A stretch of DNA of 64,000 bases, from the NCBI GenBank assembly GCA_948467395.1, contig CAOKDX010000004.1, positions 120,761 to 184,760 of the forward strand. Reading direction: 5' to 3'. Under the pieces are notes generated by a model. It was not told the DNA's origin. It ran no database searches and saw only the letters and a list, made by a program, of their open reading frames with translations. The translations under genes were made by a program, and so were the position numbers. Below, piece after piece: positions 2,876 to 61,702 of this stretch (positions are counted from its first letter, which is position 1; the number at the start of each line of letters is the position of its first letter). The stretch is from an uncultured Clostridia bacterium (GTDB lineage Bacteria; Bacillota; Clostridia; Lachnospirales; Lachnospiraceae).

Positions 2876-2891
2876 CTTTTCCTGCCTTTCT

Positions 2892-2920: not shown

Positions 2921-2921
2921 A

Positions 2922-24937: not shown

Positions 24938-26221
24938 ATGAATCGTGACGAATTAATTGATGCCATCTGTAATAACAGATTAGATGACACATTTATCACC
25001 CTCTATGGAAATAATAAGGAGACGATAAATGCACAGAAAGACAGATATAGTAAGGCAATAAAAAGCTTTGAAACACTGTATCCCGATTGCGAGGATATCT
25101 CCATCTTTTCCGCACCGGGAAGAACCGAGGTGTGCGGCAACCATACGGATCATCAGCACGGCTGTGTCCTGGCGGCTGCGGTCAATCTGGATGCCATCGC
25201 CGTGGTATCCTTTCATAACGACCGTGTGATCCGTCTCCAGTCGGTGGGGTATGAACAGGAATTTATTGAACTGGATAATCTGAATATCCACCCGGAGGAA
25301 AAGGGAACCTCCCGTTCACTGGTCCGGGGCATGGTTTCCCAGTTCCACGATATGGGCATAGATGTGGGCGGTTTCAATGCGTTTATCACCTCGGATGTCC
25401 TGTCCGGAAGCGGATTGTCCTCATCCGCCGCCTTCGAGGTACTGATCGGCAATATTATTGACCGGCACTACAATGACGGGCAGGCCGGCCCAGTAAAGAT
25501 TGCAAAGATGGGGCAGTATGCTGAGAATAAATATTTCGGAAAAGAGAGCGGCCTGATGGATCAGATGGTTTCCTCTGTCGGGGGGTTTGTCTTTATCGAC
25601 TTTGAGGATACGACCAATCCTGTTATTGAAAAACACAGCTGTGACTTTGAAAAGGGCGGCCTGAAGCTGATTATCACTGATACAAAGGGAAGTCATGCCG
25701 ATCTCACCGATGATTATGTCTCCATCCCGTCGGAAATGAAACTGGTTGCCGCGCAGTTTGGTAAGCTGGTTCTGCGGGAAGTGGATGAAGAACAGTTCTA
25801 TCAGTCCCTGGCCCGGCTGCGCACGGTCTGTTCCGACCGCTCGATCCTGCGGGCAGCCCACTTCTTCGGCGACAATGCAAGGGTGGGGAAGGAAGTCGAG
25901 GCACTGGACAAAAAGGATTTCCCGTCCTTCCTGAAGCTGGTCCGCGAATCCGGAAGATCCTCTGCCGAGTTGCTGCAAAATCTGTACTCCACAAAGAAGC
26001 CCATCGAACAGGGCATACCGCTGGCTCTGATGGCAAGCAAAAAATTACTGGAGGACCGCGGCGCCTTCCGGGTCCACGGCGGCGGGTTTGCTGGAACCAT
26101 ACAGGCCTTCGTTCCCTTTGTACTGATCGAGGATTATAAGAAAACAATGGAAGCATTATTTGGGGAAGGCTGCTGCTATATATTGAATATCCGTCCGGAA
26201 GGCGGTTATCAGGTGGTGTAA
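24938..26221 (+). CDS. galK: Galactokinase
   Basis: A 427-residue GHMP kinase. The galactokinase signature FSAPGRTEVCGNHTDHQHG is present near residue 60, the ATP-binding loop SGSGLSSSAAFEV near 155, and the C-terminal GGGFAGTIQAFVP near 390. It phosphorylates alpha-D-galactose to galactose-1-phosphate, the first Leloir step after mutarotation. The 50-residue N-terminal extension before the signature is usual for the clostridial type. AAGGGAGG precedes the ATG. It is the first gene of galK-galE-galT, behind a strong terminator. Repeat copy 7 lies three bases after its stop. Confidence 0.95.
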   Translation: MNRDELIDAICNNRLDDTFITLYGNNKETINAQKDRYSKAIKSFETLYPDCEDISIFSAPGRTEVCGNHTDHQHGCVLAAAVNLDAIAVVSFHNDRVIRLQSVGYEQEFIELDNLNIHPEEKGTSRSLVRGMVSQFHDMGIDVGGFNAFITSDVLSGSGLSSSAAFEVLIGNIIDRHYNDGQAGPVKIAKMGQYAENKYFGKESGLMDQMVSSVGGFVFIDFEDTTNPVIEKHSCDFEKGGLKLIITDTKGSHADLTDDYVSIPSEMKLVAAQFGKLVLREVDEEQFYQSLARLRTVCSDRSILRAAHFFGDNARVGKEVEALDKKDFPSFLKLVRESGRSSAELLQNLYSTKKPIEQGIPLALMASKKLLEDRGAFRVHGGGFAGTIQAFVPFVLIEDYKKTMEALFGEGCCYILNIRPEGGYQVV

Positions 26222-26299: not shown

Positions 26300-27295
26300 A
26301 TGAAAAGTATATTAGTTTTAGGCGGAGCCGGATACATCGGTTCCCACACTGTATATGAACTGATTGATGCAGGAGAAAAGGTTGTCATCATCGATAATCT
26401 CAGCACCGGATTCTGGCAGGCTGTCCATCCGGCGGCGGTATTCTACGAGGGGGATATCCGCGACCGGGAGTTTATGGATCATGTATTCGACAGGGAAGAG
26501 ATCGACTGCGTCATTCACTTTGCCGCCAGCTCCCAGGTGGGCGAGAGCATGAAGGATCCGCTGAAATATTACAGCAACAATCTGTGCGGGACAGAGGTTC
26601 TGCTGGAAAGCATGGTGGCGCACGGGATTGACAAAATTGTATTCTCCTCCACGGCAGCTGCCTATGGCGAACCGGAAAGCATCCCCATCCTGGAGAGCGA
26701 CCGTACCCTTCCTACGAACTGTTACGGCGAGACTAAACTCTCCATGGAAAAAATGTTCCACTGGACCTCACAGGCACACAATCTGAGATTTGTATCCCTG
26801 CGCTATTTTAATGCCTGCGGCGCCCGGCCGGACGGAAAGATCGGGGAAGCCCACGATCCGGAAACGCATCTGATCCCCCTGATCCTGCAGGTTCCCAATA
26901 ACCAGCGGGACCATATCTCTATTTTCGGCAATGACTATGAGACAAAGGACGGAACCTGCGTACGGGATTATATCCATGTAAACGATCTGGCCCAGGCGCA
27001 TATCCTCGCTATGGAATATCTGCGCCGTGGCGGTGAGAGCAATATTTTCAATCTCGGAAACGGCGTGGGCTTCACCGTTAAGGAAGTGGTGGAGACGGCA
27101 CGCAGGGTCACAGGACATCCCATACCGGCGAAGGAAGAGGCACGGCGGGCAGGCGATCCATCCACCCTTATTGCTTCCAGCGATAAGGCAAAGGAGGTGC
27201 TGGGCTGGGATCCGAAATATGCCAATCTGGATACCATTATTGAGACAGCCTGGAAATGGCACCAGACGCATCCCCACGGATATAAAACGGTCTGA
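26300..27295 (+). CDS. galE: UDP-glucose 4-epimerase
   Basis: A 331-residue extended short-chain dehydrogenase. Rossmann motif GGAGYIGS occupies residues 8-15, and DIRD (52-55) and HFAASSQV follow. The catalytic set is SST at 116-118 with Y142 and K146 in CYGETK. The C-terminal substrate pocket includes the NVGNGVGFTVKE-like region (here NLGNGVGFTVKE). It interconverts UDP-galactose and UDP-glucose with bound NAD+, closing the Leloir cycle with GalT. TAGGAGG lies just before the ATG. Separated from galT by a multi-hairpin spacer. Confidence 0.95.
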   Translation: MKSILVLGGAGYIGSHTVYELIDAGEKVVIIDNLSTGFWQAVHPAAVFYEGDIRDREFMDHVFDREEIDCVIHFAASSQVGESMKDPLKYYSNNLCGTEVLLESMVAHGIDKIVFSSTAAAYGEPESIPILESDRTLPTNCYGETKLSMEKMFHWTSQAHNLRFVSLRYFNACGARPDGKIGEAHDPETHLIPLILQVPNNQRDHISIFGNDYETKDGTCVRDYIHVNDLAQAHILAMEYLRRGGESNIFNLGNGVGFTVKEVVETARRVTGHPIPAKEEARRAGDPSTLIASSDKAKEVLGWDPKYANLDTIIETAWKWHQTHPHGYKTV

Positions 27296-27347: not shown

Positions 27348-27504
27348 TCGGAATGGAGGGATAGTGTGAAAAATAAGCTCGATAGCTTATTTTTCACACC
27401 ACTATTTGTGCCGAAGTGCCACAAATAGTATTGATGTACAGGGCAAAAACAGCTTCGCTGCTTTTTGCTCGTACTTCCTCCGCTGCGCTTCGGAATGGAG
27501 GGAT
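27348..27504. repeat. Multi-hairpin element between galE and galT, bounded by 15-base direct repeats
   Basis: A perfect 15-base direct repeat, TCGGAATGGAGGGAT (27348-27362 and 27490-27504), brackets three consecutive hairpins. These are a perfect 16-base-pair stem with loop CGAT (27364-27399), a 10-base-pair stem ACTATTTGTG/CACAAATAGT (27401-27429), and GCAAAAACAGC/GCTGCTTTTTGC (27443-27468). Each direct-repeat copy contains GGAGGG followed by a start codon; the first would begin a 20-residue peptide (GTG at 27366), the second is galT. Confidence 0.82.
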
Positions 27505-27507
27505 TGT

Positions 27508-28995
27508 ATGATCAATGCGTTAATTACCGAACTGGTCTCTTATGGTATCCGGACAGGATTAGTCGCGGACGCAGACCGGGTTTTCGTCACCAATCAGCTT
27601 CTGGAACTGTTTGATGTGATAGAATATGAGCCGGAAAAGATTGCCGCAGAGCGGGAACTGGCAGCGATACTGGATGATCTTCTTGATTATGCCTTCTCAC
27701 AGGGATTACTGAAGGAGGATACCGTCACCATGAGAGATCTGTTGGACACAAAAATCATGGGAATACTAACCCCTGCGCCATCGGTAATCCGCAAACGGTT
27801 TTCTGATATCTACAGTGTCGATCCCCGGATGGCAACAGATTATTATTACAAGTTCAGTCAGACCACCAATTATATCCGCAGGGACCGGATCGCCAGAGAT
27901 GAGAAATGGGTGACAGAGACGGAGTTTGGCCCCATTGACATTACCATCAATCTCTCCAAGCCGGAGAAGGATCCAAGGGAGATCGCTAAGGCAGGACAGG
28001 CGAAGAGATCCGGATATCCCAGCTGCCTGCTCTGTATGGAAAATGAAGGCTACGCCGGGCACTATTCCCACCCGGCCAGGCAGAACCACCGCATCATTCC
28101 CATCCGTCTAGACGGGGATGATTATTTCCTGCAGTACTCCCCTTATGTGTATTACAACGAACACTGCATTATATTGAACAAAGAGCACATCCCCATGAAG
28201 ATCGACCGCAGTGCCTTTCGGAAGCTGCTGGATTTCGTCCGGCTGTTTCCGCACTATACGGCGGGTTCCAATGCCGATCTTCCCATCGTTGGCGGCTCCA
28301 TCCTGAGCCATGACCATTTTCAGGGAGGAGGCTATACCTTTGCCATGGCAAGGGCTCCCTTCGACAGGACATTCTCCCTGCCGGGATATAAGGATCTCAC
28401 CGCAGGGATCGTGAAATGGCCCATGTCTGTGATCCGGCTCCAGGGAACGGATACGGAACGCATATCGGATGCGGCGGAACATATTCTCACATGCTGGCGG
28501 CAGTACACAGACCAGGAGGCGTTTATCTTCAGCGAGACCGATGGCACTCCCCACAATACCATTACCCCCATTGCCCGTATGCGCGGCGGGTTGTTTGAAC
28601 TGGATCTGGTTCTCCGGAATAATATCACCACGGATGAAAGTCCCTGGGGAGTCTACCACCCCTCGGCGGATCTCCATCACATCAAAAAAGAGAATATCGG
28701 ACTCATCGAGGTAATGGGGCTGGCAGTCCTGCCGGCAAGATTAAAGAAAGAAATGGAAGGGCTGGAGGACGCCATTCTGAAGGGAAGGGAGCTCCGCTCC
28801 GAAGAAGAGCTCCGCAAACACGCAGACTGGGCAGAAAGCTGGATTGGAAATTATGAACTGACCCGGGAGAATATACACGGGATCATTCAGGATGAGATCG
28901 GCAAGGTCTTTGTCAGGGTTCTGGAATGTGCCGGCGTATACAAGAGAACGGACAAGGGCCAGGCAGCATTTGACCGCTTTATCGCTTCTCTTTAA
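27508..28995 (+). CDS. galT: UDP-glucose--hexose-1-phosphate uridylyltransferase (Bacillota type)
   Basis: A 495-residue GalT of the family 2 form found in Bacillota rather than the 350-residue enterobacterial type. Features are an N-terminal helical region (INALITELVSYGIRTGLV), the CLLCMENEGYAGH metal/substrate region, and the catalytic GGSILSHDHFQGG where the HxH-type histidine nucleophile sits. It swaps UMP between UDP-glucose and galactose-1-phosphate. The ATG at 27508 has GGAGGG at the right distance; the frame is open further upstream through the hairpin element, but that part is not protein-like. Its last 17 bases overlap the convergent binding-protein gene. Confidence 0.93.
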   Translation: MINALITELVSYGIRTGLVADADRVFVTNQLLELFDVIEYEPEKIAAERELAAILDDLLDYAFSQGLLKEDTVTMRDLLDTKIMGILTPAPSVIRKRFSDIYSVDPRMATDYYYKFSQTTNYIRRDRIARDEKWVTETEFGPIDITINLSKPEKDPREIAKAGQAKRSGYPSCLLCMENEGYAGHYSHPARQNHRIIPIRLDGDDYFLQYSPYVYYNEHCIILNKEHIPMKIDRSAFRKLLDFVRLFPHYTAGSNADLPIVGGSILSHDHFQGGGYTFAMARAPFDRTFSLPGYKDLTAGIVKWPMSVIRLQGTDTERISDAAEHILTCWRQYTDQEAFIFSETDGTPHNTITPIARMRGGLFELDLVLRNNITTDESPWGVYHPSADLHHIKKENIGLIEVMGLAVLPARLKKEMEGLEDAILKGRELRSEEELRKHADWAESWIGNYELTRENIHGIIQDEIGKVFVRVLECAGVYKRTDKGQAAFDRFIASL

Positions 28996-30025
28996 CAGTG
29001 TCCCCCATATAACTGTCAACATTATCACTGGTCACCTTGGAATAGGGAAGGTAGATGTACCGCTTGTTCTTAAACGAGATATCCTCCTTCCCCTCTCCTG
29101 TGACCAACGCCGCCGCCAGCTTTGCCATAGCTGCTGCCTGGCCTTCCTTATCGTTGTAAACGGTTCCGGCCAGTCCGCCGTCCCGCACAGCCTCCAGTCC
29201 CACATCTGTGCCATCGATGCCAAAAAAGACAGGCAGGGCCGTCTCTGTAAAATTCAATTTGAGATAGGCGTCTAATGCGCCAAGCGCCATATCATCGTTA
29301 TTGGCAAGTACGAGCTCAATCTTTCCGGGGTGCTGGCTGATCATCTGCATCATACGGTTCTGTGCCTGGGCACGGTTCCAGTTAGCTATCCCGTAGCTCA
29401 GCTTCTCCAGCTCAATGCCATTTTTCTTCAGTGTATTTACCGCGTTCTCAGTCCGGATAATGGCGTCCTGATGACCCGGCTCCCCCTCCAATACCACATA
29501 CTGTATCCTGCCATCCCTGTTCCGGTCAATCCGTGTGTTTTTCCGGATCATCTCTGCCGCCAGCTCTCCCTGCATCACCCCGGACTGTCTTGCATCGGCG
29601 CCCACATAATACAATTCCTCCCAGCGCTGCATATCCTCTGTAACCGGCTCCCTGTTAAAGAAAATAATGGGGACATCTTTCTCCCTTGCCAGTTCTATGA
29701 TCTCGGAGGGATCCGTCCGGTCCACCAGATTGACACAGAGTACATTGCATCCCGCGTTGATTAGCTCCCTCACCTGATCATCCTGCGTCTGCTGTGAACC
29801 GGAGGCCTCCCGTACCGTCATGGCAATATCCAGTCCGTCATCCCCCAGCCTGTCCATCTGTTCCCGAAAACAGGGAATCAGCTGACTAAGAAAGGTATCG
29901 CTCTGATCATAATATGTCACGCCCACATATACCTTCTGATCTGACGCTCCACTCCCGCCGCAGGCTCCCAGTATCAGGCATATACCGATGGCAAGCCCCC
30001 ATGTCAGTATCCTCTTTTTTCTCAT
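28979..30025 (-). CDS. Galactose/glucose-binding lipoprotein (canonical order)
   Basis: A 348-residue periplasmic-binding-type protein. The lipobox LILGACGG places the lipidated Cys at residue 22. It follows the usual MglB order: VYVGVTYYDQSDTFL first, then CVNLVDRTDP, FFNREP, the calcium-loop DRNRDGRIQYVVLEGEPGHQD, VLANNDDMALGA and FFGIDGTDVG. It should bind galactose or glucose outside the membrane. It is the last gene of the regulator-kinase-binding protein operon rather than of the transporter operon, so it may feed the sensor or share MglA/MglC. Convergent overlap with galT. Confidence 0.88.
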   Translation of the reverse strand: MRKKRILTWGLAIGICLILGACGGSGASDQKVYVGVTYYDQSDTFLSQLIPCFREQMDRLGDDGLDIAMTVREASGSQQTQDDQVRELINAGCNVLCVNLVDRTDPSEIIELAREKDVPIIFFNREPVTEDMQRWEELYYVGADARQSGVMQGELAAEMIRKNTRIDRNRDGRIQYVVLEGEPGHQDAIIRTENAVNTLKKNGIELEKLSYGIANWNRAQAQNRMMQMISQHPGKIELVLANNDDMALGALDAYLKLNFTETALPVFFGIDGTDVGLEAVRDGGLAGTVYNDKEGQAAAMAKLAAALVTGEGKEDISFKNKRYIYLPYSKVTSDNVDSYMGDTVKEKR

Positions 30026-30063: not shown

Positions 30064-31035
30064 TTACTGACTCATGGTAAAAAGTAGCTCCTGATTTTTC
30101 TTGGAAAATAAATCCTTTTTGCGAATCACATGATATAACATAGTTTTGCTTTCCATTTTACTGAAATAATGCCCCAGGCACTCTGCCGTCTCCGCAAGAC
30201 TCTCGTACCCCCGGCCAAATTCATCTGGAACTACCAGACATTCCGTTATCCCTGTATCCAGAAAATAGACTGCCTCTGTGGAATTCCCTATTCCGTATAA
30301 CAGCGCTCCGTGAAGATTCCTGTTCAATGAAAATTCCCCCGCCGCCGTCAGGCTCGTATCATCCAGCGCAATCACCAGGTCTGCCTTGGACTGTTTCCCC
30401 AGTGAATCCTGATCCGATTCCCCGGCGACAGAAACCCTCCAGCTGGTCCGGGTCCCCCTGCCCCGCAGGGTATCGAGAAATCCCTTCTGCCGGCTGGCCG
30501 CCTGGGCAGATTCCATATTCTGTGCTGCGATTCCCAGCACCTTTCCCTCCACATTGCCATTGAAATCCCGCAGTACCTCCTCGGCCAGCGCCTTCCCCAT
30601 GGCGTAATCATCCGGTCCTGTCACCGGAAGACAGGATGTACTTTCGTCCTCCGATCCCACACTTCCCACAAGCATAACCGGAATCTTCCGGGACGCCTCT
30701 TCCAGCTTCCGGGCGGCGTCATCACCCGGCACTGGCTGAACAATGACCGCATCCGCCCCATTCCGGATCTCGCTTCCCACAAGCCGCAGTTCCTCTTCTA
30801 TCGTCTGCATATCGCCTGAACTGACGATAAACATCTCGACCCCCTGATCCTCTGCCGCCATTTTCAGCCCATACCGGAAGGCGGACCACTGACTGGAATC
30901 GGGGTCCGGAAGGATAACGGAAATCCTTCGGCGGTCCCTGCCGCCCTGCTCCCTGACCATGATAAATGCCAGCACAATTACCATAGCGGCCAGCGTGATT
31001 TCTAATATTATAAATAAATGTCTGTTATTCCTCAT
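30064..31035 (-). CDS. Membrane-anchored sugar-binding-domain protein (sensor accessory)
   Basis: A 323-residue protein with an uncleaved N-terminal anchor (HLFIILEITLAAMVIVLAFIMV) followed by a type 1 periplasmic binding fold: ISVILPDPDSSQWSAFRYGL, DAVIVQPVPGDDA, VMLVGSVGS, VLGIAAQNMES, VIALDDTSLTA. No lipobox is present. Next to a YesM-type kinase this matches the known arrangement in which a membrane-tethered binding protein (XylFII-like) presents the sugar signal to the kinase. It starts two bases after the kinase stop, so the two are tightly coupled. The ligand is probably galactose, judged only by context. Confidence 0.8.
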   Translation of the reverse strand: MRNNRHLFIILEITLAAMVIVLAFIMVREQGGRDRRRISVILPDPDSSQWSAFRYGLKMAAEDQGVEMFIVSSGDMQTIEEELRLVGSEIRNGADAVIVQPVPGDDAARKLEEASRKIPVMLVGSVGSEDESTSCLPVTGPDDYAMGKALAEEVLRDFNGNVEGKVLGIAAQNMESAQAASRQKGFLDTLRGRGTRTSWRVSVAGESDQDSLGKQSKADLVIALDDTSLTAAGEFSLNRNLHGALLYGIGNSTEAVYFLDTGITECLVVPDEFGRGYESLAETAECLGHYFSKMESKTMLYHVIRKKDLFSKKNQELLFTMSQ

Positions 31036-31037
31036 CT

Positions 31038-32897
31038 CTATTTATCCTGCATTTCTCTCTTATTGATCTCTTCTCTGCTGAGCACATGCCCCTTCTCAAG
31101 TATCTTTCTGTTTTCCTCTGTATCGGGCACTGCCGGAATGCGAATGGACACCTTCGTCCCCTCGTCCAGCTCGCTTTCCACCAGCAGACCGTATTCCTTC
31201 CCAAAAACCATCTGAATCCGGTTGTTGACATTCACCAGGCCGACGCCGGAGCCATGCTTATGAATCCGGTCACTGTCTGTCAGCACCAGCTCCGTCTCCT
31301 CCTCAGACATACCAAAACCGTTGTCCTCTACCGACAGAATCACATCCTCCTCCTGTCTGCACGCCGCCACCCGGATCTCTCCGCAATCGTCCATGCTGCC
31401 CACCCCATAATTAATGGCATTTTCCAGCAGCGGCTGCAGCACTAATTTCACACTGCAGCAGGAAAGGGCGGCAGGATCCACGTCAAAGATGACAGAAAAC
31501 GCATTTTTATATCGGATCTTCTGGATATTCATATAGCTTCTGGCATGCTGCAGCTCATCCTGTACAGAGATCACAGTCTTCCCTCTCGAAAGGCTGATCC
31601 GGAACAGCTTCGCCAGCTCCGATATCATAAAGACGGCATCGTCATTCCGCTCTCCTTCAATCATCCAGGTAATGGAATCCAGTGCATTGTACAGAAAGTG
31701 GGGATTAATCTGACTCTGCAGTGCCTCCAGCTCGCTCTTCCTTCTCTCATTCTGCTCCATCACGATCTCCTGCATCAATCCATCAATTTGCTCATAGGAG
31801 CGCTGGATCGAATATCCGAGATGCCGGATCTCCTGAGAGCCGCCAATATAAATCTCCGGCTTCTCCCCCGCCTCATGTTCCACCACAGAATCACTCAGCT
31901 TCAGGATAGGGCTGGAAATCCTTACCGATACGACCCGGTTGATCACCGCCAGCATCATGCCCATCAGGAGGATCAGCATTATAATGAAATACCGGATATT
32001 AAACATGCCCTGGGTGAATGTAGAATCTGGAATCACCCCCACAAGCTTCCATCCCGTATAACTCACCGTCTTAACGATAAGCTGCCGCCGCTCCCCGCCA
32101 AAGCTCTCCTCATAGACCCCGTCCTTGTAAGAAGCCGCCGCGGCATTATTTTCCTGAAAACTGCCGCTGCTGATCTGCATCTGCTTCTTATGGTAAATAA
32201 TTTCACCATTGTTATCGCAGAGATAATAGTACTGTCCGCTGTGGGCCGTGTTCGTATTGATCCGCTGAAGCATCCGGGAGATCCCCGAATAATCCATATC
32301 CACCAGCAGTACGCCAGATATGGGAACGCCCTTGTCCGTCAGATCCACCACCCGGCTCAGGGAGATTACCCAGTAATACCGCCGGGCCGCATCATCAAAA
32401 AGATTCTGGATATGGGGCGTGGAAAAATGCATATTCTCCATGGCCTCCAACGCCTTCCTGTACCAGGACTGATGGGTAACGTCCGGATCCTCCTTCTGCT
32501 GCGCCACCGGCTCCGCCGCCATCAGACTTCCATAATCATTGTACAGGGCAATGCTGCGGAGATGGCTGCGGTTTGCCTCATATATCGTATTCATTCCCTG
32601 ATGGATCTTATTGTCCTGTAAGGAGAGATCGTTTTCCTTGATCACATTATAATAGACGGCGTCGGAGATCTGCCGCATTCCCACAAGGTACTCCTCCAGA
32701 CTCTCCCTCGTCTGTTCCATAAGCTTCTCCGTATCCCGCACCTTCTCCTGCTGGGACAGGGCGGAGAATTTAATATACATCACAACGCCCAGGATCAGCA
32801 TAATGGAGACCGATATCAGGGAAAAGGCAAGCATCACGGTGGACTGCATTCCCCTCGGTTTCAATCTCCTCATATTTTCCCAAAGCCTAGTTCTCAC
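31038..32897 (-). CDS. YesM-type sensor histidine kinase
   Basis: A 619-residue kinase. The first membrane segment is at about 20-42, an extracellular dCache-like sensor (45-300) follows, the second membrane segment is at 300-322, then comes a HAMP region. A His_kinase domain with QSQINPHFLYNALDSI puts the phospho-His at residue 400, and HATPase motifs follow (ENAINYGVG for the N-box, VEDNGFGMSEEE, GSGVGLVNVNNR). The GTG at 32897 has GGGAG ten bases upstream and overlaps the regulator stop by eleven bases. With the anchored binding protein downstream it forms a sugar-sensing complex; phosphate goes to the adjacent YesN-like regulator. Confidence 0.92.
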   Translation of the reverse strand: MRTRLWENMRRLKPRGMQSTVMLAFSLISVSIMLILGVVMYIKFSALSQQEKVRDTEKLMEQTRESLEEYLVGMRQISDAVYYNVIKENDLSLQDNKIHQGMNTIYEANRSHLRSIALYNDYGSLMAAEPVAQQKEDPDVTHQSWYRKALEAMENMHFSTPHIQNLFDDAARRYYWVISLSRVVDLTDKGVPISGVLLVDMDYSGISRMLQRINTNTAHSGQYYYLCDNNGEIIYHKKQMQISSGSFQENNAAAASYKDGVYEESFGGERRQLIVKTVSYTGWKLVGVIPDSTFTQGMFNIRYFIIMLILLMGMMLAVINRVVSVRISSPILKLSDSVVEHEAGEKPEIYIGGSQEIRHLGYSIQRSYEQIDGLMQEIVMEQNERRKSELEALQSQINPHFLYNALDSITWMIEGERNDDAVFMISELAKLFRISLSRGKTVISVQDELQHARSYMNIQKIRYKNAFSVIFDVDPAALSCCSVKLVLQPLLENAINYGVGSMDDCGEIRVAACRQEEDVILSVEDNGFGMSEEETELVLTDSDRIHKHGSGVGLVNVNNRIQMVFGKEYGLLVESELDEGTKVSIRIPAVPDTEENRKILEKGHVLSREEINKREMQDK

Positions 32898-34497
32898 CTT
32901 CTATATGCTCCCTTCTGTATTTGGAAGGAGACACGCCAAACTTTCTCTTGAAAACATAACTAAAATAATTGGGATCCGTGTATCCGACATTTTTCGCAAT
33001 GATATAGCTCTTCTCGCTGGTCTCGATAAGCTGTGCCGCGGCCTGCTCCAGACGGTAATCCGTCAGATAGCGGATAAAGGAATTCCCCTTCTCCTTCTTG
33101 AACACACTGGAGAAATAGGAATTAGATACCCCTAACTCCTCACAGACACGGTCCAGGGAGAGATCCTCGTCCCCATAATTGTGTCGGACATATTCCTCTG
33201 CCTTCGCCACAAAGGATCGGGTGGATTTATTTCTCGCATGGATGAGATTCTCCCGGAAGGCAAGACAACAATCCATCAGCCAGTTCCGGAATGCCGACGG
33301 CTCCAGATCAAAGACACTGCTGTAGAGCTTCCGTATATCCTCCGTAAAGCCCTCCACGGATATATCGTTATTAAGGGCAAAGCGATACAGCGTGCTCACC
33401 AGCTCCATCACATCCACATAGTGCTGCTGCAGCGATTTATTGGGAAAGGAGGTGTGCTTTATATACCGGTCCGCTGCCTGGATCACTTCCTTTTCCGATC
33501 CCAGCCGGATCATTTTGAACAAATTGCCGATCTCCGCATCGTTGGCCGGACCGGGGGGAATCAACTCTCCAGGAACCACCTCCTGCATATTGATGGCTCT
33601 GGCGGCACCGTAGATCACCCGGTAAGAAACCGCCTCCCTTGCCCCCAAATACGATTGTGACAGCGCCGTGATCGTAGGACAGGCCGGACCGATACCGGCA
33701 GTGACCACGGCGCCGATGATACCCTGGGCATATTTGCAGAAGCGGTCACACTCATCCGTCAGCTCTGCCACCTCATTTTCGGTCTTTAACTGCGGTATCA
33801 TAATAGTATTTCCAAGGTAAGAAAAACATTTCGCCTGCCACCTCTCCGCCAGTCTCTCCTTCACCTGTCTGTGTACGGAGGTGGCAAGCAGAAGGGGATT
33901 TATATCGACGGGAGCCTGACTGGAAGAGGTGTGGAACACAACGCAGCAGAAAAATGGTCCCGGGAAGGAGAGCTGATAATCCGACAGATATCCCGGGATT
34001 TCCTCTTCCGGGATACTGCCCTCGATCAGGGAGGTATAGAAATTTGCCTGCAGAAGGGGCAGGGATTCCATATAATATTTCTGCAGGATCTCCACATTGC
34101 GTTTCTCGCTGATCTCCTGATCCAGCTTGATCTTCAGCTGGGTAAATACATTGGTCAGCTCTACGGAATTCACCGGTTTGAGTATATATTCCTCCACCTC
34201 CAGGTGAACGGCCCCCCTGGCATACTCGAACTCGTCAAACCCGGTGAAGAACAGAATCTTAGTGGCCGGATATTCTGCCTTGATCCGGCGGGACAATTCC
34301 ATCCCGTCCATAAACGGCATCCGGATATCTGTCATAACCACATCCGGCTGGCATTCCTCCATTATCTCCAATGCCTTCACCCCGTTATTGGCATAACCCG
34401 CCACACAAAAACCCAGGCCCTCCCAGTTGATCTTCCTCATGATCACATGGATGACCTCTTCCTCATCATCTACCAGAAGTACCGAATATTTCTCCAT
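32887..34497 (-). CDS. YesN-type AraC-family response regulator
   Basis: A 536-residue regulator. The N-terminal receiver has VLLVDDEEEV and phospho-acceptor Asp57 in VVMTDIRMPFMDG, with KP at YILKPVN. A long central region of unclear fold is followed by a C-terminal AraC HTH pair (LSLDRVCEELGVSNSYFSSVFKKEKG and AKNVGYTDPNYFSYVFKRKFGVSPSKYR). The ATG at 34497 has GGGAGG five bases upstream; a start at 34530 lacks one. First gene of the sensory operon. The obvious targets are the divergent or adjacent mgl and gal promoters, although no operator sequence was recognised by eye. Confidence 0.92.
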   Translation of the reverse strand: MEKYSVLLVDDEEEVIHVIMRKINWEGLGFCVAGYANNGVKALEIMEECQPDVVMTDIRMPFMDGMELSRRIKAEYPATKILFFTGFDEFEYARGAVHLEVEEYILKPVNSVELTNVFTQLKIKLDQEISEKRNVEILQKYYMESLPLLQANFYTSLIEGSIPEEEIPGYLSDYQLSFPGPFFCCVVFHTSSSQAPVDINPLLLATSVHRQVKERLAERWQAKCFSYLGNTIMIPQLKTENEVAELTDECDRFCKYAQGIIGAVVTAGIGPACPTITALSQSYLGAREAVSYRVIYGAARAINMQEVVPGELIPPGPANDAEIGNLFKMIRLGSEKEVIQAADRYIKHTSFPNKSLQQHYVDVMELVSTLYRFALNNDISVEGFTEDIRKLYSSVFDLEPSAFRNWLMDCCLAFRENLIHARNKSTRSFVAKAEEYVRHNYGDEDLSLDRVCEELGVSNSYFSSVFKKEKGNSFIRYLTDYRLEQAAAQLIETSEKSYIIAKNVGYTDPNYFSYVFKRKFGVSPSKYRREHIEGEN

Positions 34498-34644
34498 ATT
34501 AACCTCCCATAGCACACGATTTTTGTGCATGATGGTAATTATATTTCACATTTTTTTATTATAACAAACGACGTAACAAATGTAAATCTCCATGCCAAAA
34601 GAGCCAGAATGAATTCTGACTCTTCCGGACTTTTTTATTCTTTT

Positions 34645-36189: not shown

Positions 36190-37698
36190 TTATAGGTATT
36201 TTGCACTGAGCTTTAAAAGTTCCTCCTGATCTGTCTCCTTTGTATTTACAATACCTGAGAGACGTCCGTTTGACATTACCCCGATGCGGTTCGTGATACC
36301 AAGGATCTCCGGCATCTCGGAAGACACAACGATAATGGTCCTTCCCCTCTTTGCCATGTTAATGATCAGCTCATAAATTTCATATTTGGCTCCGACATCA
36401 ATTCCCCTGGTTGGTTCATCCATCATAAAGACCTCCGGGCTTCGTTCCAGCCATTTTCCCATGATCACCTTCTGCTGGTTGCCGCCTGACAAACTGGAGA
36501 TCATATCTTCCGGTCCCATGCACTTCGTATGCATGATGTCGATCTCCTTCGCCGTAGCCCTGGTCATCTTCGGATTGGAAAGGGCTACCCCGGACTTATA
36601 CTGTTTGAGATTGGCAATCGTCGTATTAAAAATCAGGTCGCCCTTCAAAAAGAGCCCGTTTGCCTTCCTCTCCTCCGTGATCATGGCAAAGCCATGATCC
36701 ATGGCATCCCTGGCACTGCTGAAGTTCATCAGCTGATGATTAAAATACACGCGCCCGGCCGCCCTTGTCCGCACACCAAATATCGTTTCCAGCAGCTCGG
36801 TCCGCCCGGCTCCCACCAAACCATACAGTCCAAAAATCTCTCCCTCCCTCACATCAAAGGTGATGTCCTGCAAATGAGGTTCAAATTTCGTAGAGAGATG
36901 CTGTACAGACAGAACTACTTCTCCTGGCGTATTGTCAACCGGCGGAAAACGGTTTTCCAGAGAGCGTCCCACCATGGCCGCGATCAGCTCATTCATGTCC
37001 GTCTCTCCGCTCTTCTTTGTCATAACCAGATTTCCGTCCCGCAGAACGGATATTTCATCGCATATTTCAAAGATTTCATCCATCTTATGTGAGATGTATA
37101 CAAGGGATATCCCCTGCTTCTTAAGCATCCTCATCATCTCAAAGAGCTTCTCTACTTCCTGTACGGTAAGAGAGGAAGTAGGTTCATCCAGTACAATCAC
37201 CCTGGAATGATAGGAAATCGCCTTGGCAATCTCGCACATCTGCCTCTGTGATACGGACATGTTCCGCATGGGCTGGGTTAAATTCACAGTCATTCCCAGT
37301 TTTCTGAAAAGCTCGGATGCCTCCTTTTTCATTTTTCCCTCGTCCACCACTCCCATGGAATTCACAGGATAGCGCCCCAGAAACAGATTATCGATCACAT
37401 TTCTTTCCAGGCACTGGTTCAGTTCCTGATGCACCATGGCAATGCCGTTCTCAAGAGCATCCTTCGGTCCGGAAAAGCTAACCTCTTTCCCGTCCAGAAA
37501 AATCTTGCCCTCATCCTTCTGATATGTTCCAAAGAGACACTTCATCATGGTTGATTTTCCAGCGCCGTTCTCGCCCATCAGTCCCATGACCGTGCCAGCC
37601 TTCACATCCAGATTGATGCGGTCCAGTACTCTGTTCCGGCCAAAGGATTTGCTCATACCCCGTATCGACAAGACGATATCATTCTTTTTATCCGCCAT
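36190..37698 (-). CDS. mglA: Galactose/methyl-galactoside ABC transporter ATP-binding protein
   Basis: A 502-residue tandem ATPase of the sugar-importer type. First nucleotide-binding half: Walker A GLMGENGAGKST near residue 40, signature MSVSQRQMCEIAKA, Walker B VIVLDEPTSSL. Second half: degenerate Walker A GLYGLVGAGRTELL, signature LSGGNQQKVIMGKW, Walker B VFMMDEPTRGID. This asymmetry is typical of MglA/RbsA/XylG. It powers import through MglC. Preceded by GAGGTAGATT and by a 310-base spacer with stable hairpins after mglB, which may set a lower dose than the binding protein. Confidence 0.94.
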   Translation of the reverse strand: MADKKNDIVLSIRGMSKSFGRNRVLDRINLDVKAGTVMGLMGENGAGKSTMMKCLFGTYQKDEGKIFLDGKEVSFSGPKDALENGIAMVHQELNQCLERNVIDNLFLGRYPVNSMGVVDEGKMKKEASELFRKLGMTVNLTQPMRNMSVSQRQMCEIAKAISYHSRVIVLDEPTSSLTVQEVEKLFEMMRMLKKQGISLVYISHKMDEIFEICDEISVLRDGNLVMTKKSGETDMNELIAAMVGRSLENRFPPVDNTPGEVVLSVQHLSTKFEPHLQDITFDVREGEIFGLYGLVGAGRTELLETIFGVRTRAAGRVYFNHQLMNFSSARDAMDHGFAMITEERKANGLFLKGDLIFNTTIANLKQYKSGVALSNPKMTRATAKEIDIMHTKCMGPEDMISSLSGGNQQKVIMGKWLERSPEVFMMDEPTRGIDVGAKYEIYELIINMAKRGRTIIVVSSEMPEILGITNRIGVMSNGRLSGIVNTKETDQEELLKLSAKYL

Positions 37699-38008
37699 AA
37701 TCTACCTCCATTCACGCGCTTTCTTACATAAAAAATGGCTGGCTGAGAACCGCAGCCAAAGAACTATCGTTCTCAAGAAAAACACTTCGTATTTTTCGCT
37801 CTATATATATCAAAACTTCCTATAAGATAAAAAAGCTCTTCTCCGCCTATCGAGGACTCTTTTATTTGTTAAGAAGAGAACTCTGCAAAACCTCCGCTTT
37901 GCAGAGTTCAAAATTAACCGTTGCAGCAAATATGAGGTATCCGCTGTGTTATTCTGGCTGGCAAGTATGACCAGAACCGGTAATTTCCCTTTCACAATCC
38001 AGACAGGA
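37699..38008 (-). other. mglB-mglA spacer with several hairpins
   Basis: Contains no gene. Minus-strand hairpins are AACTCTGCAAA/TTTGCAGAGTT (about 37873-37908), a longer one around CTCGATAGGCGGAG (37835-37866), GAAAAA/TTTTTC (37778-37799), and GAGAAC/GTTCTC (37744-37776). This matches the common pattern in which mRNA hairpins after a binding-protein gene protect it and lower expression of the ATPase gene. Loop sequences resemble those of the galE-galT element. Confidence 0.6.
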
Positions 38009-39301
38009 TTACTGATTTAACAGCGCTGTATAAGAAGCTGCATTGTCTGTCTTAACCATATTGATGGCAAAGGCATCATACTGACCCGGATTTCCAAGAC
38101 GGTTGGTAATATTGGACTCGGTCTGTCCGTCGCCGCCGATATAGTCAACCTCAAGATTGAGAAGATCGTCATATTTCTGAAGGAGCGGCTGATAAGTGGA
38201 GCTCAGGAAATTGTCAGATGAATTGTAAATGTTCAGCCAAACCTTCTTCGAAGCGCTCTTTCCCTTATCAAGCTGCTTGGATACCGGCTCATAAACCTTC
38301 GTGGAATCTGTGAAGTCCTGATAGTTCTCAGCTGTCACTGCGACATTCAGTGCATAGTAGGAACGCTCATCCTCCTTATAGGTGTACACCTCTTTTGTCA
38401 GTACATTGCCGGCCTCGTCTGCTGTCCCGATTCCTGTATCGATGTCTACGCCGTCCAGCGCATTGCGGAGAACACGGAGTGTCAGATATGCCTGTACGTC
38501 AGCATGCTGGCTGATGGTTCCGCCGTATCCCTCTGCGATGGCAGCAACAGCGTCATTGTTCGCATCATATCCGAAGGTAGGAACTTTATTATCCTTGGAC
38601 CATGCGTTGAACATGGACATTCCCATTCCATCGTTATTGGATACTACGACATCAATCTCTTTTCCGAAAGAGGACGACCATGTGCCAATGGCATTCCCTG
38701 CGGTAGCGGCATCCCATGTAGCTCCAGCGGAATTCTTCATCTCCTGGGAAGCCAGCTCACGAACTACATATTTCTTTCCGCCGACCTCCAGCGTACCGTC
38801 CTTTACGGCAGAAGCCTTGCCGTCTACATTCGTACCAACCGGCTCGCTGTTGATGTCTCCGTCTTTGTCAATCCCTGTACCCAGCGCCTTGCGTACGCCT
38901 CTTGTACGCGCGATGGAATCATTGTGTCCAATATCTCCGATGGCAAGAACATAACCGATCACCCCGTCGCCGTTGCGGTCAATCTTATCAATGTTTTTCT
39001 CGATGTAATCCTTTACCATCGTTCCCTGAAGCTCTGCACCCTGGTTGGCATCAAATCCCACATAGTAGGTATCCTTATTGTAGGAAAGCGCCGCCTTATC
39101 CAATTCTCCCGTAGAGCTGTTGGAAGGCTGGCGGTTAAACCATACTAACGGTTTGTCCTTGTTTGCCACCGTAGAGGAACCGCCTCCCTCTGATGTTGTA
39201 CCTGAACCGCCCGATGAGGAGCCGCCTCCCTCTGACCCGCAGGCTACAAGTGAAAGACCAAGTACCAGTGCCATTGTAATACCAAGTATTTTTTTCTTCA
39301 T
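38009..39301 (-). CDS. mglB: Galactose-binding protein, circularly permuted
   Basis: A 430-residue lipoprotein (lipobox LVACG, Cys21; Gly/Ser-rich linker 22-46). Residues 50-335 follow MglB from its middle to its end: LVWFNRQPS (52-59), TYYVGFDANQ, calcium-loop DRNGDGVIGYV (108-118), VVVSNNDGMGMS (218-229), TFGYDANND, and GGTISQHADVQA. The segment that opens ordinary MglB is instead at residues 353-425: VWLNIYNSSDNFLSSTYQPL, GGDGQTESNITNRL, DAFAINMVKTDNAASY. These correspond to IGVTIYKYDDNFMS, NDSQNDQSKQND and ALAINLVDPAAA of E. coli MglB. So the first strand-helix pairs have moved to the C-terminus. The two halves of the sugar pocket can still form. It is first in mglB-mglA-mglC and presumably delivers galactose. 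Confidence 0.9.
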   Translation of the reverse strand: MKKKILGITMALVLGLSLVACGSEGGGSSSGGSGTTSEGGGSSTVANKDKPLVWFNRQPSNSSTGELDKAALSYNKDTYYVGFDANQGAELQGTMVKDYIEKNIDKIDRNGDGVIGYVLAIGDIGHNDSIARTRGVRKALGTGIDKDGDINSEPVGTNVDGKASAVKDGTLEVGGKKYVVRELASQEMKNSAGATWDAATAGNAIGTWSSSFGKEIDVVVSNNDGMGMSMFNAWSKDNKVPTFGYDANNDAVAAIAEGYGGTISQHADVQAYLTLRVLRNALDGVDIDTGIGTADEAGNVLTKEVYTYKEDERSYYALNVAVTAENYQDFTDSTKVYEPVSKQLDKGKSASKKVWLNIYNSSDNFLSSTYQPLLQKYDDLLNLEVDYIGGDGQTESNITNRLGNPGQYDAFAINMVKTDNAASYTALLNQ

Positions 39302-46878: not shown

Positions 46879-48774
46879 TCACAAATTTGCATATATCCGA
46901 ATTACCGCAGGCTTATCCCAATGAACTCTTTTGACCTTACGCCTCCTTCTGTTTGCATAATTTTTAGCCTCTTCATAATCAATGACAAACTCGCCAATTA
47001 ATATCGCCTCCGAATTATCAATGATTACTTTGGCAGAATGAATCTGCGGATTGAACTCGGAATCTGGTACGACAGGGATCTGAACCTCCGCGTTTGGATT
47101 TATCCGTATATTGTATTCATACACATTACCTGCACACGCCTTAATACTGTTCACATAGGTCTCAATCATTTCCTCAGGTACACAGATATTGTACCCCATG
47201 ATATCCGAAAAACAAAGTGCCTCATCAACATACTCTCTTACCTTTGCCATTACCCTCGGTTTTTCACTCTCCGTAACCACCTCCACATCTAATTGCTTTT
47301 TCTGTTCCTCTAATTGCCGGATGGCATCATCATTCTTTTTCTTCCTCTGGAAATATATTTCCTTTGTAATCTCGCCGCCCTCTCGCATATCAATGAGATT
47401 TTCATTCCTCTTGATTAATTTGTTAATATCTTCCTCTATCTTTGCGAAATCTGTCTGAGAAGCCCTATGATTTGATGTCTCAACAAAAGCATTGTCTACA
47501 ACAGCAAGCAGGCGTTCTTTGACCTCACGAATATTACATTCCAGATAATCAAATACCCGAAGCGTAAACAAATCCAATTTCCAGTCTCTGATGCCGTATA
47601 CAGAACAATTATCCTGAAGAATCTCACTGCGCCTTGCACGTTCTTCCTGATTTCTGTCATCGACAAGCTGATAGCAACGGTATGTAGATGTATGATTGAC
47701 CGCCTGTGTATCTTTCCGAAACCTTCTGCCACATCCACATCTCAGTTTCCTGCAATAGATATCCTTATTTCCTGCATACCCCTTCATGCTTCTTTTCCCT
47801 GTCGCATCTCCTTTTGAAAAGCCAATCCTGCTGTCAATACCATCTTGTACGGCATGCCACATATCAGGGTCTATGATTGCAGGAAAATTTCCTTTTTTAA
47901 TAATACGCATATCCTTCTGTATGTTGTTAATCCTGCTGTGCTTTAACGGGTCACTTGTCACGCTCTGAAGATACTCATACTCCCCCATATAGGTACGCCT
48001 GCGGAGTATCCTCTCAATGGTACTCTCGTGCCACTTACATTTTCCCTGTGCCGTTTTGTATCCATGATCCTCCAAATATTGCCGTATCCGCTTCATGCCA
48101 TAGCCTTTCAGGGATAATTCAAAAATCTTTCTAACCGTAGCCGCCTCCTCTTCATTGATTTTATAGGTTGTATCACAGGATTTTTCTCCCTTTACCAAAT
48201 CATACCCCAGAATATTTCCATTGCCAAAATGTACTCCATTCGACCGTGCCGTCGCCTGACCAGAAAAAACACGCTCTGAAATTTTTCGTGACTCTTGTTC
48301 CGCATACTGAGACATAATCGTAAGTTTGAAATAATCATCTGCCTTAAACGTCCATATGCCGTCATTAACGAAATATACCTCAATACCATTCTCTCTTAAC
48401 TCATCCACCAGATCCAAAACAATTCTGGCATTGCGCATAAAACGACTGACCTCTCGCACAACAATCAGATTATATACCCCGTTCTTCGCCTTTTGTATCA
48501 TATCAGCAAAAGCTGGGCGGTTTTTTAGTGATGTCCCCGATATTCCTTCTTCCACATACAAATCAGTTCTTTCATCAAACTGCCAGTCATCCTTATGCTG
48601 CCTCGCCAGCTCCAGTGCCCATTGTTTCTGGTTACCAAGGGCATCAATCTGCTTCTCATGCTCTGTACTTACCCTGATATCAATGGCAACTTTTCTTCTG
48701 CCACTGAACCTGCGCATCTCTTGCAAAATGTTCCTTGCATCATGAATATCCAAATATCGATTATTTCCCAACAT
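46879..48774 (-). CDS. Large serine recombinase (left)
   Basis: A 631-residue site-specific recombinase. The N-terminal resolvase domain has RVSTEHEKQIDAL with the nucleophilic serine, EEGISGTSLKNRPAF and REVSRFMRN with catalytic arginines. A recombinase domain follows (LGYDLVKGEKSC, then EAATVRKIFELSLKGYGMKRI), a zinc beta-ribbon (KLRCGCGRRFRKD), and a long coiled-coil region (DINKLIKRNENLIDMREGGEITKEIYFQRKKK). It would integrate or excise an element with short att cores. It overlaps the preceding small SHOCT-like gene by 14 bases. Its paralogue at 61.6 kb has the same layout, and both have methyltransferase-end sequence past their 3' ends. Confidence 0.93.
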   Translation of the reverse strand: MLGNNRYLDIHDARNILQEMRRFSGRRKVAIDIRVSTEHEKQIDALGNQKQWALELARQHKDDWQFDERTDLYVEEGISGTSLKNRPAFADMIQKAKNGVYNLIVVREVSRFMRNARIVLDLVDELRENGIEVYFVNDGIWTFKADDYFKLTIMSQYAEQESRKISERVFSGQATARSNGVHFGNGNILGYDLVKGEKSCDTTYKINEEEAATVRKIFELSLKGYGMKRIRQYLEDHGYKTAQGKCKWHESTIERILRRRTYMGEYEYLQSVTSDPLKHSRINNIQKDMRIIKKGNFPAIIDPDMWHAVQDGIDSRIGFSKGDATGKRSMKGYAGNKDIYCRKLRCGCGRRFRKDTQAVNHTSTYRCYQLVDDRNQEERARRSEILQDNCSVYGIRDWKLDLFTLRVFDYLECNIREVKERLLAVVDNAFVETSNHRASQTDFAKIEEDINKLIKRNENLIDMREGGEITKEIYFQRKKKNDDAIRQLEEQKKQLDVEVVTESEKPRVMAKVREYVDEALCFSDIMGYNICVPEEMIETYVNSIKACAGNVYEYNIRINPNAEVQIPVVPDSEFNPQIHSAKVIIDNSEAILIGEFVIDYEEAKNYANRRRRKVKRVHWDKPAVIRIYANL

Positions 48775-57522: not shown

Positions 57523-57777
57523 TTAAATGCCCAAATACCCCCGGAGGAAGAGAGCGGTATCGGCTGGGTTTCTCCCAAATAACACTGTACCATCCGCCTT
57601 TTTTTCCACTGGCGGGAGGATTACCGTGTCTAACTCCAGCCCTTCCTGCATCTGCACCATTTCTTCCCTTGTTCCTTCTGCTATCCTGCGGTATCCCGAG
57701 GGCTGAAACCCGCCGCTGACCCTATGTACCTCGCACAGGACGTAAGGCGTCACGGTTATGGACTGGATGTTCAGCAT
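57523..57777 (-). CDS. Unknown 84-residue protein
   Basis: MLNIQSITVTPYVLCEVHRV, then GYRRIAEGTREEMVQMQEGL and VLFGRNPADTALFLRGYLGI. No recognised family. It overlaps the DUF262-like gene by seven bases and is therefore the last gene of a three-gene operon. Confidence 0.55.
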   Translation of the reverse strand: MLNIQSITVTPYVLCEVHRVSGGFQPSGYRRIAEGTREEMVQMQEGLELDTVILPPVEKKADGTVLFGRNPADTALFLRGYLGI

Positions 57778-58934
57778 GACGGGGACACCTCCTTATCCTC
57801 AGCTTCCTCTGGTTTTCCCGGCTCTTTTTCCTCTTCCAGACCTTCGCCGGACGCTTCTCCCCCTGCCGGTTCCGATGCCTCATTCCCGGCAGTTTCTGCA
57901 CCAGTCTCTGTACTCAGGATGCTCACGTCAGTGCCAAGACCAAACCGGCAGGCAAAGATATCAAGGAGCGCCGTCAGCCTCCCCTCTGTCTTGGCTCTCT
58001 TTACATTGCCGGTACCCGTGTTCATCGTGTAGGCAGGACACCTTGCTTCACAAAACTCATCAAGGAACTCCTTAAACTGCGCTGGTGTGATGCCATGCTC
58101 CAGCGCAATCTTTGACAATACCATTATCATCGGGACGTTGGATTTTTTGAGGAATTTGTGCTTCTCCGGGAATGCCCTGCCCAGATAATCCGCAATCTCC
58201 TCCATCATTTCCCGTTTATCCTCATTGTAGTTTCCACGGATATGTCCGCAGTACTTTGTCACCTCTCTGGAGCTGATTGCCTTATAGTCATACCCCTCAT
58301 GCCGGGCGTCCAGCAGGAGCATGGTCTGGAGCAGTACCTCCAAATCTGACTCACGGCGCAGCTGGGCTACCGTGAGGGATATGGCATGCTGGAAGAATTC
58401 TTTCCGGCATACCTCTTTCGCCCATGCGGATAATTCTACCCCCAGCACACTCCTGCACTTCTGGATCGGGGATAACGGCGTGCTGTTGTTGAGCCTTTTG
58501 AATATCTCCTCGACCTCTTCGTCCGTGGCTTCCTCCAGACAAAAGATACTGAAGCGGTAGCCGAGTATCTCATCTTTGCATTCTTCGCTCAATTCCTCAA
58601 ATCCCGCATTTGCCAGTTCATATATGACACCATCCAGTTCTACTTCCGGCGTACCCCCGTGGAGGGTATAGCCTCCTTCAATGAAATCGAAAACACCTGT
58701 CATCCTCTGCTTGCCGTCTAAGGCATCGTAGATGGTGTTCTGACCTTCCTTGGACTTCAGAAGATATAATGGCGGTATGGGATAGCCAGCCAGCATGGAA
58801 TGAATCAGCAGACTGCGCTGTATCAGGCTCCACTGGGAGCCGGAACGCTGGACTGGATTATCAAATGTCAGACTGCCTTTCTCATACCACTTCTTTAGTG
58901 TTCTCGTGCCGGTAGGCAGTGTACTTTTCTGCAT
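57771..58934 (-). CDS. DUF262-family protein (ParB/GmrSD-N-like)
   Basis: A 387-residue protein of the DUF262 type: FDNPVQRSGSQWSLIQRSLLIHSMLAGYPIPPLY, the hallmark DALDGKQRMTGVFDFIEGG, then FEEIFKRLNN-like EVEEIFKRLNNSTPLSPIQ. DUF262 is a ParB-like fold with NTP-binding or nuclease activity and is the N-terminal half of GmrSD type IV restriction enzymes; the DUF1607 HNH half is absent here. The last 45 residues are acidic and low-complexity (EGLEEEKEPGKPEEAEDKE). GGGGGTG precedes the ATG. Operon with acidic-tail protein upstream and an 84-residue protein downstream. Confidence 0.8.
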   Translation of the reverse strand: MQKSTLPTGTRTLKKWYEKGSLTFDNPVQRSGSQWSLIQRSLLIHSMLAGYPIPPLYLLKSKEGQNTIYDALDGKQRMTGVFDFIEGGYTLHGGTPEVELDGVIYELANAGFEELSEECKDEILGYRFSIFCLEEATDEEVEEIFKRLNNSTPLSPIQKCRSVLGVELSAWAKEVCRKEFFQHAISLTVAQLRRESDLEVLLQTMLLLDARHEGYDYKAISSREVTKYCGHIRGNYNEDKREMMEEIADYLGRAFPEKHKFLKKSNVPMIMVLSKIALEHGITPAQFKEFLDEFCEARCPAYTMNTGTGNVKRAKTEGRLTALLDIFACRFGLGTDVSILSTETGAETAGNEASEPAGGEASGEGLEEEKEPGKPEEAEDKEVSPSC

Positions 58935-60129: not shown

Positions 60130-61533
60130 ATGAAAAAGAAAATTAGCCGGAAAACATCAGTAAATATCAAAAGAGGGCTTGCAAATGCGTATGGAGGATG
60201 CGGCTGTGAGATGAAAAAGGCGGTTCTGGAGATCAGACCAGAGTATTTGGGCGATCCAGCATTACGCAAATTGTTTGCAAAATATAAGATAACTGTCTCA
60301 AGGGGCGAAAAGCATCTGTGGCAAAACAAAAAATATTTCGACGAGCTGTTTACCTTGCTTTTCCCATACCCATTTGACAGAACAAAATCGGACAAAGTAA
60401 GCCTGCATCTGGGAGCAGATCAAATAACCACTATCCATACATTGTCGGGTGAAGAAACGCTGACTGAAGGATTTTCCTGGCTTCTCCTGCTTCATCATGC
60501 CATACGACAGCAAGATAACATCTCGCAGGTTAATGCTAATGCCGCCAATTTTTATAAGCACATTCTTAAATTAGCAACGATCCCGGCTCATACCGCTCCC
60601 AGCCGACATACACCCGCCTCCACGCCCAAGAAACCCTCGGATACTGGTCTGAAAGTTCTTGGAAATAAAAAATGGTTTTTGGATAATTTTGAGGAAATCA
60701 TACAGGCACTTCCTAATTCTGTAGATACTTTTGTAGAGTCTTGCACGGGGAGTGGTATCGTTGCCTTCGAAGCCTGCAAACAAAAACGTTTCAAGCGCAT
60801 TATCACGAATGATATTTATTGGCATAAATCCAATTACCTTCGGGCATTTTTCCTTGCATCAGATGCCCTGAAAGCCGCCTGCCTTTCCCTGAGACCTGAC
60901 CGGTCAACCTATGATGAGGCAAATAAAGTTATCGAAAAATATAAAGATTATTCGACGGATGAGATTCTTCCTGATGTTGCCGCCAGATACCTTTTTATCA
61001 ACTACTGCAACAATTCTAGGGGAAGATTGAACCCCAATAATATCCTTGAGGGCAATGAGGGTGCTACAGAAAAATATATAAAATATCTGGACTCTCTCTG
61101 GAACTCTTATCGCTCTGGAAAAAAGGTTATTATACATAACGAGGATGCCTCAGTCACCATAAAAAAGCATAACCGAAAAAAGCATCTTCTTTTCGTTGAC
61201 CCACCATACCCTGAAACAAAGGGATATGAAAACAAGTTCTCATCGGAAAATTTTGGGGAAATTGCAAAGGATACGATTGCCTTCAACGGATACTTCATCT
61301 TCTGCTGCAGGATAACAAAAAAGCATGGCAAAATACATGAACATGACGGTGCATATGGCATGGATGACCTGCACATTAAACATATCATTGACAACTCCTT
61401 TTTGGGACATGGACTTTATTTTCGGGATTACCCCTATAATAAAAGTGGCGTCGCCATCGAACGTGTCATAACAAACTTCCCCTTCCCCGGCTGCTCTCAC
61501 TACGACACTGGTCAGCCTTGGCAGGGAGAATGA
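60130..61533 (+). CDS. D12-class DNA adenine N6-methyltransferase
   Basis: A 467-residue protein. The first 150 residues form an unrecognised N-terminal region, cysteine-containing at the start (GGCGCEMKK). From about 175 on it is a Dam-like D12-class methyltransferase: LGNKKWFLDNFEEII, motif I FVESCTGSGIVAFEA (AdoMet pocket), TNDIY, and catalytic motif IV LLFVDPPYPETKGY. It should methylate adenine in a short target, protecting the island or altering its regulation; no restriction partner is adjacent. The terminal 25 codons plus terminator are duplicated at 46443-46705. It faces the right recombinase, separated by a shared terminator. GAAAGGAGAACG precedes the ATG. Confidence 0.88.
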   Translation: MKKKISRKTSVNIKRGLANAYGGCGCEMKKAVLEIRPEYLGDPALRKLFAKYKITVSRGEKHLWQNKKYFDELFTLLFPYPFDRTKSDKVSLHLGADQITTIHTLSGEETLTEGFSWLLLLHHAIRQQDNISQVNANAANFYKHILKLATIPAHTAPSRHTPASTPKKPSDTGLKVLGNKKWFLDNFEEIIQALPNSVDTFVESCTGSGIVAFEACKQKRFKRIITNDIYWHKSNYLRAFFLASDALKAACLSLRPDRSTYDEANKVIEKYKDYSTDEILPDVAARYLFINYCNNSRGRLNPNNILEGNEGATEKYIKYLDSLWNSYRSGKKVIIHNEDASVTIKKHNRKKHLLFVDPPYPETKGYENKFSSENFGEIAKDTIAFNGYFIFCCRITKKHGKIHEHDGAYGMDDLHIKHIIDNSFLGHGLYFRDYPYNKSGVAIERVITNFPFPGCSHYDTGQPWQGE

Positions 61534-61702
61534 AAATCTTTCCATAATCTGAGAAAAACAAACCCAGCCCATCAGAGTTTACCCTCTGAATGGACTGAGT
61601 TTTATACTTTCTTATACCAACTTCAAGAAATTAGACATTCCTCAAAGCCCCATAAATTCAGACTTTTTCAATTGCTCACTTCTGTGCAATCGCTGCCTGT
61701 GC
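61460..61702 (+). repeat. Right copy of the methyltransferase-end direct repeat
   Basis: 243 bases closely matching 46443-46705 in the same orientation. It covers the methyltransferase 3' end, its terminator and the last 20 codons of the right recombinase, so that C-terminus is encoded by repeated sequence. Confidence 0.85.
61560..61604. terminator. Bidirectional terminator hairpin (right copy)
   Basis: AAACCCAG plus CCAT pair with ATGG plus CTGAGTTT, with an additional inner CAGAG/CTCTG stem; A- and T-tracts flank both sides. It lies between convergent methyltransferase and recombinase genes. Confidence 0.75.

Follow-up and report, generated by a model that had tools for sequence, protein, structure and literature searches.

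How does a galactose-binding protein come to carry its opening segment at its end, and what does it do beside a homologue of ordinary order? The question is raised by a window of 64,000 nucleotides (the whole stretch of DNA analyzed here) from an uncultured Clostridia bacterium of the family Lachnospiraceae, in which an open reading frame (ORF) at 38009-39301 encodes an MglB whose parts stand in a permuted order. We put the probability at roughly 0.95 that this protein represents the TpMglB-2 family (Type Ic/Cluster Bc) in clostridia and feeds an MglA-MglC importer, and that a canonical-order MglB in the same locus is most likely the sensor of a histidine kinase. The original prediction, which stated no strand, had described a naturally circularly permuted MglB that keeps its sugar site but changes the domain tethered to the membrane. 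The ORF is real and lies on the minus strand, and that interpretation holds in part: the natural permutation, the pocket and the operon stand, whereas the change of tethered domain, the linker as a mark of permutation and the implied novelty do not.

Domain order of the permuted MglB

38009-39301, minus strand: permuted MglB, 430 residues, heading the mglA-mglC operon
38012-38248, minus strand: codons of the moved opening segment (residues 352-430)

The protein consists of a signal sequence and lipobox with Cys21, a low-complexity linker (residues 22-46), the middle-to-end part of MglB (47-335), a connector, and the opening segment (352-430, Pfam PF18610), which would correspond to approximately the first 84 residues of mature E. 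coli MglB. The peptides by which this segment was first recognized are located at residues 358-368, 389-397 and 410-422. Pfam places PF13407 at 75-284 and PF18610 (Peripla_BP_7) at 352-421, the latter with 144 bits against a curated cut-off of 36.8. Relative to canonical MglB there is also an insertion at approximately 141-185, in part common to the treponemal protein.

A profile of 25 canonical-order transport MglBs from the same taxonomic order as the window organism (the transport profile) aligned to the native protein in permuted order, with profile positions 129-213 on residues 47-139, 221-333 on 186-292 and 40-121 on 340-422; the signal region was matched as well (1-38 on 2-39). An alignment allowing circular permutation, which had been proposed as a check, was positive: in the doubled sequence a single alignment ran across the artificial junction (profile 40-211) with 78.7 bits, compared to 65.2 bits for the best of 1000 controls in which the last 79 residues were shuffled. 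The best alignment spanned the junction in 35 of the 37 permuted proteins tested in this way. With a narrower profile, built from 25 sensor-type MglBs, the score was 73.1 bits, and 500 shuffles reached at most 69.8. The body-first, opening-last order of TpMglB-2 is thus present, and judged from its sequence the protein is a natural circular permutation.

The same order recurs in 120 loci, which were fetched because they match the family and encode 110 distinct permuted proteins. In all 120, a profile built from 20 moved segments (the segment profile) gives a single match, at the C-terminus, and with the canonical profile no opening segment is detected at the N-terminus of any; copies with the opening at both ends were not seen in this set, no wider search having been made. 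The NCBIfam MglB equivalog NF011924 reaches 93.3 bits in two stretches, where more than 420 are needed, because the permutation breaks the profile; the protein would work like MglB though it falls outside that equivalog.

Fold and membrane tethering

The predicted structure matches the TpMglB-2 entries between residue 43 or 48 and residue 429 or 430, with the same fold over the whole mature protein. In TpMglB-2 the chain begins and ends in the N lobe, which is also where E. coli MglB has its N-terminus (PMC4990184), and by analogy the window protein would likewise have both termini there and a fourth crossing of the hinge. That structure and the full-length match indicate that the N lobe carries the N-terminus whichever the order; the tethered lobe is therefore probably unchanged, and the proposed change was rejected on the treponemal structure.

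The linker had also been taken to mark the permutation. Linkers also occur in canonical transport MglBs from the same taxonomic order, the two medians being 33 and 27.5 residues, of which the canonical figure is rough since lengths were taken by regular expression and came out negative for some canonical rows; this mark was therefore rejected. Tethering as a cause of the permutation is a possibility raised in PMC4990184. A permissive lipobox pattern is matched by 35 of 37 permuted proteins, all 25 canonical transport MglBs and 24 of 25 canonical sensor proteins, and does not separate the two orders; because every one of the canonical-order transport MglBs matches, tethering alone is no explanation and was rejected as such. 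The two permuted proteins that lack the lipobox Cys (L043 and L046) may be secreted or otherwise anchored.

Sugar pocket

The pocket was located by mapping the positions in Table 2 of PMC4990184 through the alignment to TpMglB-2. All ten sugar-contact positions are invariant in the 36 permuted proteins aligned; nine carry the E. coli residue, and N256 is replaced by Gln, as in TpMglB-2. The same 36 proteins also share, without exception, the calcium-site residues D108, N110, D112 and D217. In the 25 canonical sensors nine contact residues are invariant and one is conserved in at least 90%. The sugar site is accordingly kept, as had been proposed, and these contacts for glucose and galactose suggest that the protein binds galactose. 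At the E. coli D14 position, all 120 fetched proteins have Asp where TpMglB-2 has Asn, and this retained Asp may restore galactose affinity.

On the treponemal model, the lipoprotein would start at the fourth N-lobe strand of canonical MglB, pass through the C lobe and cross back, and then cross the hinge a fourth time, so that the last 79 residues would complete the N lobe; the lobes would shut around galactose or glucose, which would be handed on to the MglA-MglC importer.

Two permuted genes lack mglA and mglC in the fetched stretch: L196, at about 11639 (minus strand), which is the same as L151 at 1471-2733 (minus strand), and L056 at 1961-3274 (plus strand). The L196/L151 protein is divergent, with 61% identity in the moved segment, and Ile replaces Asp at one of its sugar contacts, so that it may be an orphan with another ligand.

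Origin of the moved segment

Several points weigh against our reading of the protein. The structure prediction is of moderate quality (predicted local distance difference test, pLDDT, 75.6; predicted template modeling score, pTM, 0.75), with pLDDT below 50 at residues 1-42, 59-64 and 247-251 and averages below 56 in two of five models. The characterized relative favors glucose approximately 30-fold, and the D128 contact, Asp in 119 of 120 permuted proteins, is the residue replaced in the divergent orphan. Other results weigh against descent of the moved segment from mglB: the segment profile retrieves no canonical MglB from the PDB at E-values up to 10, a search with four segments reaches no MglB family in NCBIfam, and the segment profile leaves most canonical copies unreached, its median over the 25 canonical transport MglBs being 3.6 bits where shuffled sequences reach 4.1. 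In a quick tree of 61 rows, for which the permuted sequences were turned back to canonical order, these sequences (16 rows) form one clade (Shimodaira-Hasegawa-like approximate likelihood ratio test, SH-aLRT, 100) on a very long branch of 4.71 changes per column; therefore the tree does not fix the parent of this clade among canonical MglBs, nor does it place the clade inside them.

Such results are what might be expected if the segment had its source in another gene and only converged on the opening of MglB. This origin was left open in PMC4990184, according to which poor conservation may imply it and the T. pallidum and E. coli proteins share 13% identity. We nevertheless consider it improbable. 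PF18610 matches the N-terminus of a canonical-order MglB (L152, residues 42-103, E 3.6e-5, below the curated cut-off), and five of the 25 canonical transport MglBs, two near-identical pairs among these five, are matched N-terminally by the segment profile with 20.5, 20.0, 14.2, 14.1 and 12.3 bits. Among 109 canonical-order MglB ORFs, ten match at an independent E-value of 0.01 or better, up to 20.0 bits and all at the N-terminal place, and the doubled-sequence alignment holds segment and body in one register. These N-terminal matches, together with the alignment across the junction, favor descent from mglB itself, the moved segment resembling genuine MglB sequence more than one acquired from elsewhere. 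A resemblance to transport MglBs only was rejected, as some canonical MglBs that do not lead mglA (e.g., L188, L187 and L198) score 13.6-19.0 bits; the 25 Lachnospiraceae sensors stay at or below 2.9 bits.

Operon and neighboring genes

37878-37909, minus strand: terminator-like hairpin of 14 pairs between permuted mglB and mglA
36190-37698, minus strand: MglA-type ATPase, 502 residues
34645-36171, minus strand: MglC-type permease, 508 residues, with approximately 175 extra N-terminal residues, predicted helical, before the permease domain
32887-34530, minus strand: response regulator with AraC-type helix-turn-helix
31038-32897, minus strand: histidine kinase with dCache domain
30064-31035, minus strand: binding-protein-like protein with an N-terminal membrane anchor, as read from its sequence
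28979-30025, minus strand: canonical-order MglB-like lipoprotein, probable sensor subunit for the kinase
27406-28995, plus strand: galT
26300-27295, plus strand: galE, called from context (Pfam alone gives Epimerase)
24938-26221, plus strand: galK

The binding protein probably belongs to an importer, as had been proposed, for its gene heads the mglA-mglC operon beside galactose catabolism genes, which converge on the mgl locus, and the canonical homologue at 28979-30025 is real. By position, permuted MglB, MglA and MglC follow one another in 112 of the 120 loci; in 73 loci the series goes on to the regulator, the kinase, the anchored binding protein and the canonical MglB (counts by gene position, with strands given for 39 loci and 12 more; several loci stop at a contig end). 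The downstream canonical MglB would most likely be the sensor subunit of the kinase and AraC-type regulator that switch the operon on. The reverse assignment, with the permuted protein as sensor and the canonical one as transport subunit, is compatible with the sugar contacts being kept in both, but it is very unlikely given these gene orders and the greater divergence of the canonical copies (44-68% identity to the window copy, against 73-89% for the permuted ones). A search of the literature found no paper on MglB with two-component systems in Lachnospiraceae.

The hairpin may raise the abundance of the binding protein over that of the importer; three terminator-like sites were found in the region against 1.8 (standard deviation 1.5) expected from shuffles, a weak excess. 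A relative of the anchored protein occurs in 81 of the 120 loci, and this protein is possibly a second sensor partner. Elsewhere in the window are two large serine recombinases at 46879-48774 and 61642-63483 (both minus strand), the second near a GmrSD-like protein (57771-58934) and a D12-class adenine methyltransferase (60130-61533), perhaps a mobile island with defense genes. A DUF3427 protein with PLD-like nuclease and helicase domains lies at 7546-10479 (minus strand).

The N-terminal extension of MglC

MglC proteins beside permuted MglB have an extra N-terminal region of approximately 175-220 residues. Among the 84 measured (whole gene in the fetched stretch, no overlap with mglA), 83 have at least 490 residues, and in the other, L090, the extension lies in a neighboring frame. 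For comparison, 14 canonical operons were hand-picked from the strongest canonical MglB matches in other families of the order; canonical MglB precedes mglA in all 14, a second canonical MglB is present in 10, and MglC has 333-422 residues, none with the permuted-type extension and the two longest with a different hydrophobic N-terminal stretch. The charged extension of the window MglC (first ~175 residues) has no sequence match in Pfam or PDB, and AlphaFold2 predicts four long helices (19 sequences, pLDDT 87.2, pTM 0.69). A literature search gave no paper on TP0686 with MglC.

It is conceivable, though doubtful, that in Lachnospiraceae and near relatives permuted MglB and extended MglC form a coupled importer type that took over transport and left canonical MglB mainly as kinase sensor, the fourth hinge strand and the extension altering how closure is coupled to transport and the Asp restoring galactose use. 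As both features occur in one clade, they may reflect one historical event rather than coupling.

Distribution

The window's genome contains PF18610 once. Counting that genome in each sample, this domain is present in 45 of 397 genomes drawn from the family, in 4 of 196 from the order and in 2 of 398 from the phylum; two of the four order-level matches are below the cut-off and represent the N-terminus of a canonical-order MglB. Among named genomes there are at least 595 candidate stretches, of which at least 570 code for relatives; the best 80 of these include Blautia, Roseburia faecis, [Ruminococcus] torques and Anaerobutyricum hallii. Although the genome is a draft of 42 contigs, an assembly rearrangement or one-off gene fusion is practically excluded and was rejected, the order being found, as the original prediction had suggested looking for, across the independent genomes of the fetched loci, and also in spirochaete crystal structures.

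The order of the window protein is therefore a correct observation, ordinary for its lineage. It is not new: the topology was published in 2016, and Gram-positive homologues were reported there (PMC4990184), while our literature search on permuted galactose-binding proteins in Clostridia gave nothing on point.

Comparison with known systems

The fold will be familiar to the specialist, and its value here is modest, as a comparative case. Three points advance the 2016 discussion: the moved segment looks like true MglB sequence, tethering alone is insufficient, and nature provides a direct comparison in gut bacteria that combine, within one locus, a permuted MglB for transport and a canonical one that is probably sensory.

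The closest known system is TpMglB-2 of the syphilis spirochaete Treponema pallidum (TP0684; PDB 5JX2, 6BGC and 6BGD), crystallized in 2016 as the founding member of Type Ic/Cluster Bc (PMC4990184). The window protein shares with it the cut point, permuted order, connector, lipoprotein nature, pocket and calcium-site residues, 41-42% identity over nearly the whole mature protein, and a putative partnership with an MglA/MglC-type importer. It differs in the Asp at the D14 position, in its phylum and in an operon with kinase, regulator and canonical MglB. With canonical MglB (E. coli GGBP and the clostridial canonical-order proteins), it has in common the fold and the sugar-contact residues, except the Gln for N256, and it is set apart by the place of the first 84 residues, four hinge crossings on the treponemal model against the canonical three, and the insertion. 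The clostridial three-component sugar sensors CuaD-CuaS-CuaR (PMC10384115) provide, in CuaD, a precedent for a sensor binding protein; they resemble the window locus in having a second binding protein by the two-component system, apart from the transport binding protein, and differ in that the sugar is cellobiose there and presumably galactose here, with a sensor role demonstrated for CuaD and probable for the canonical MglB.
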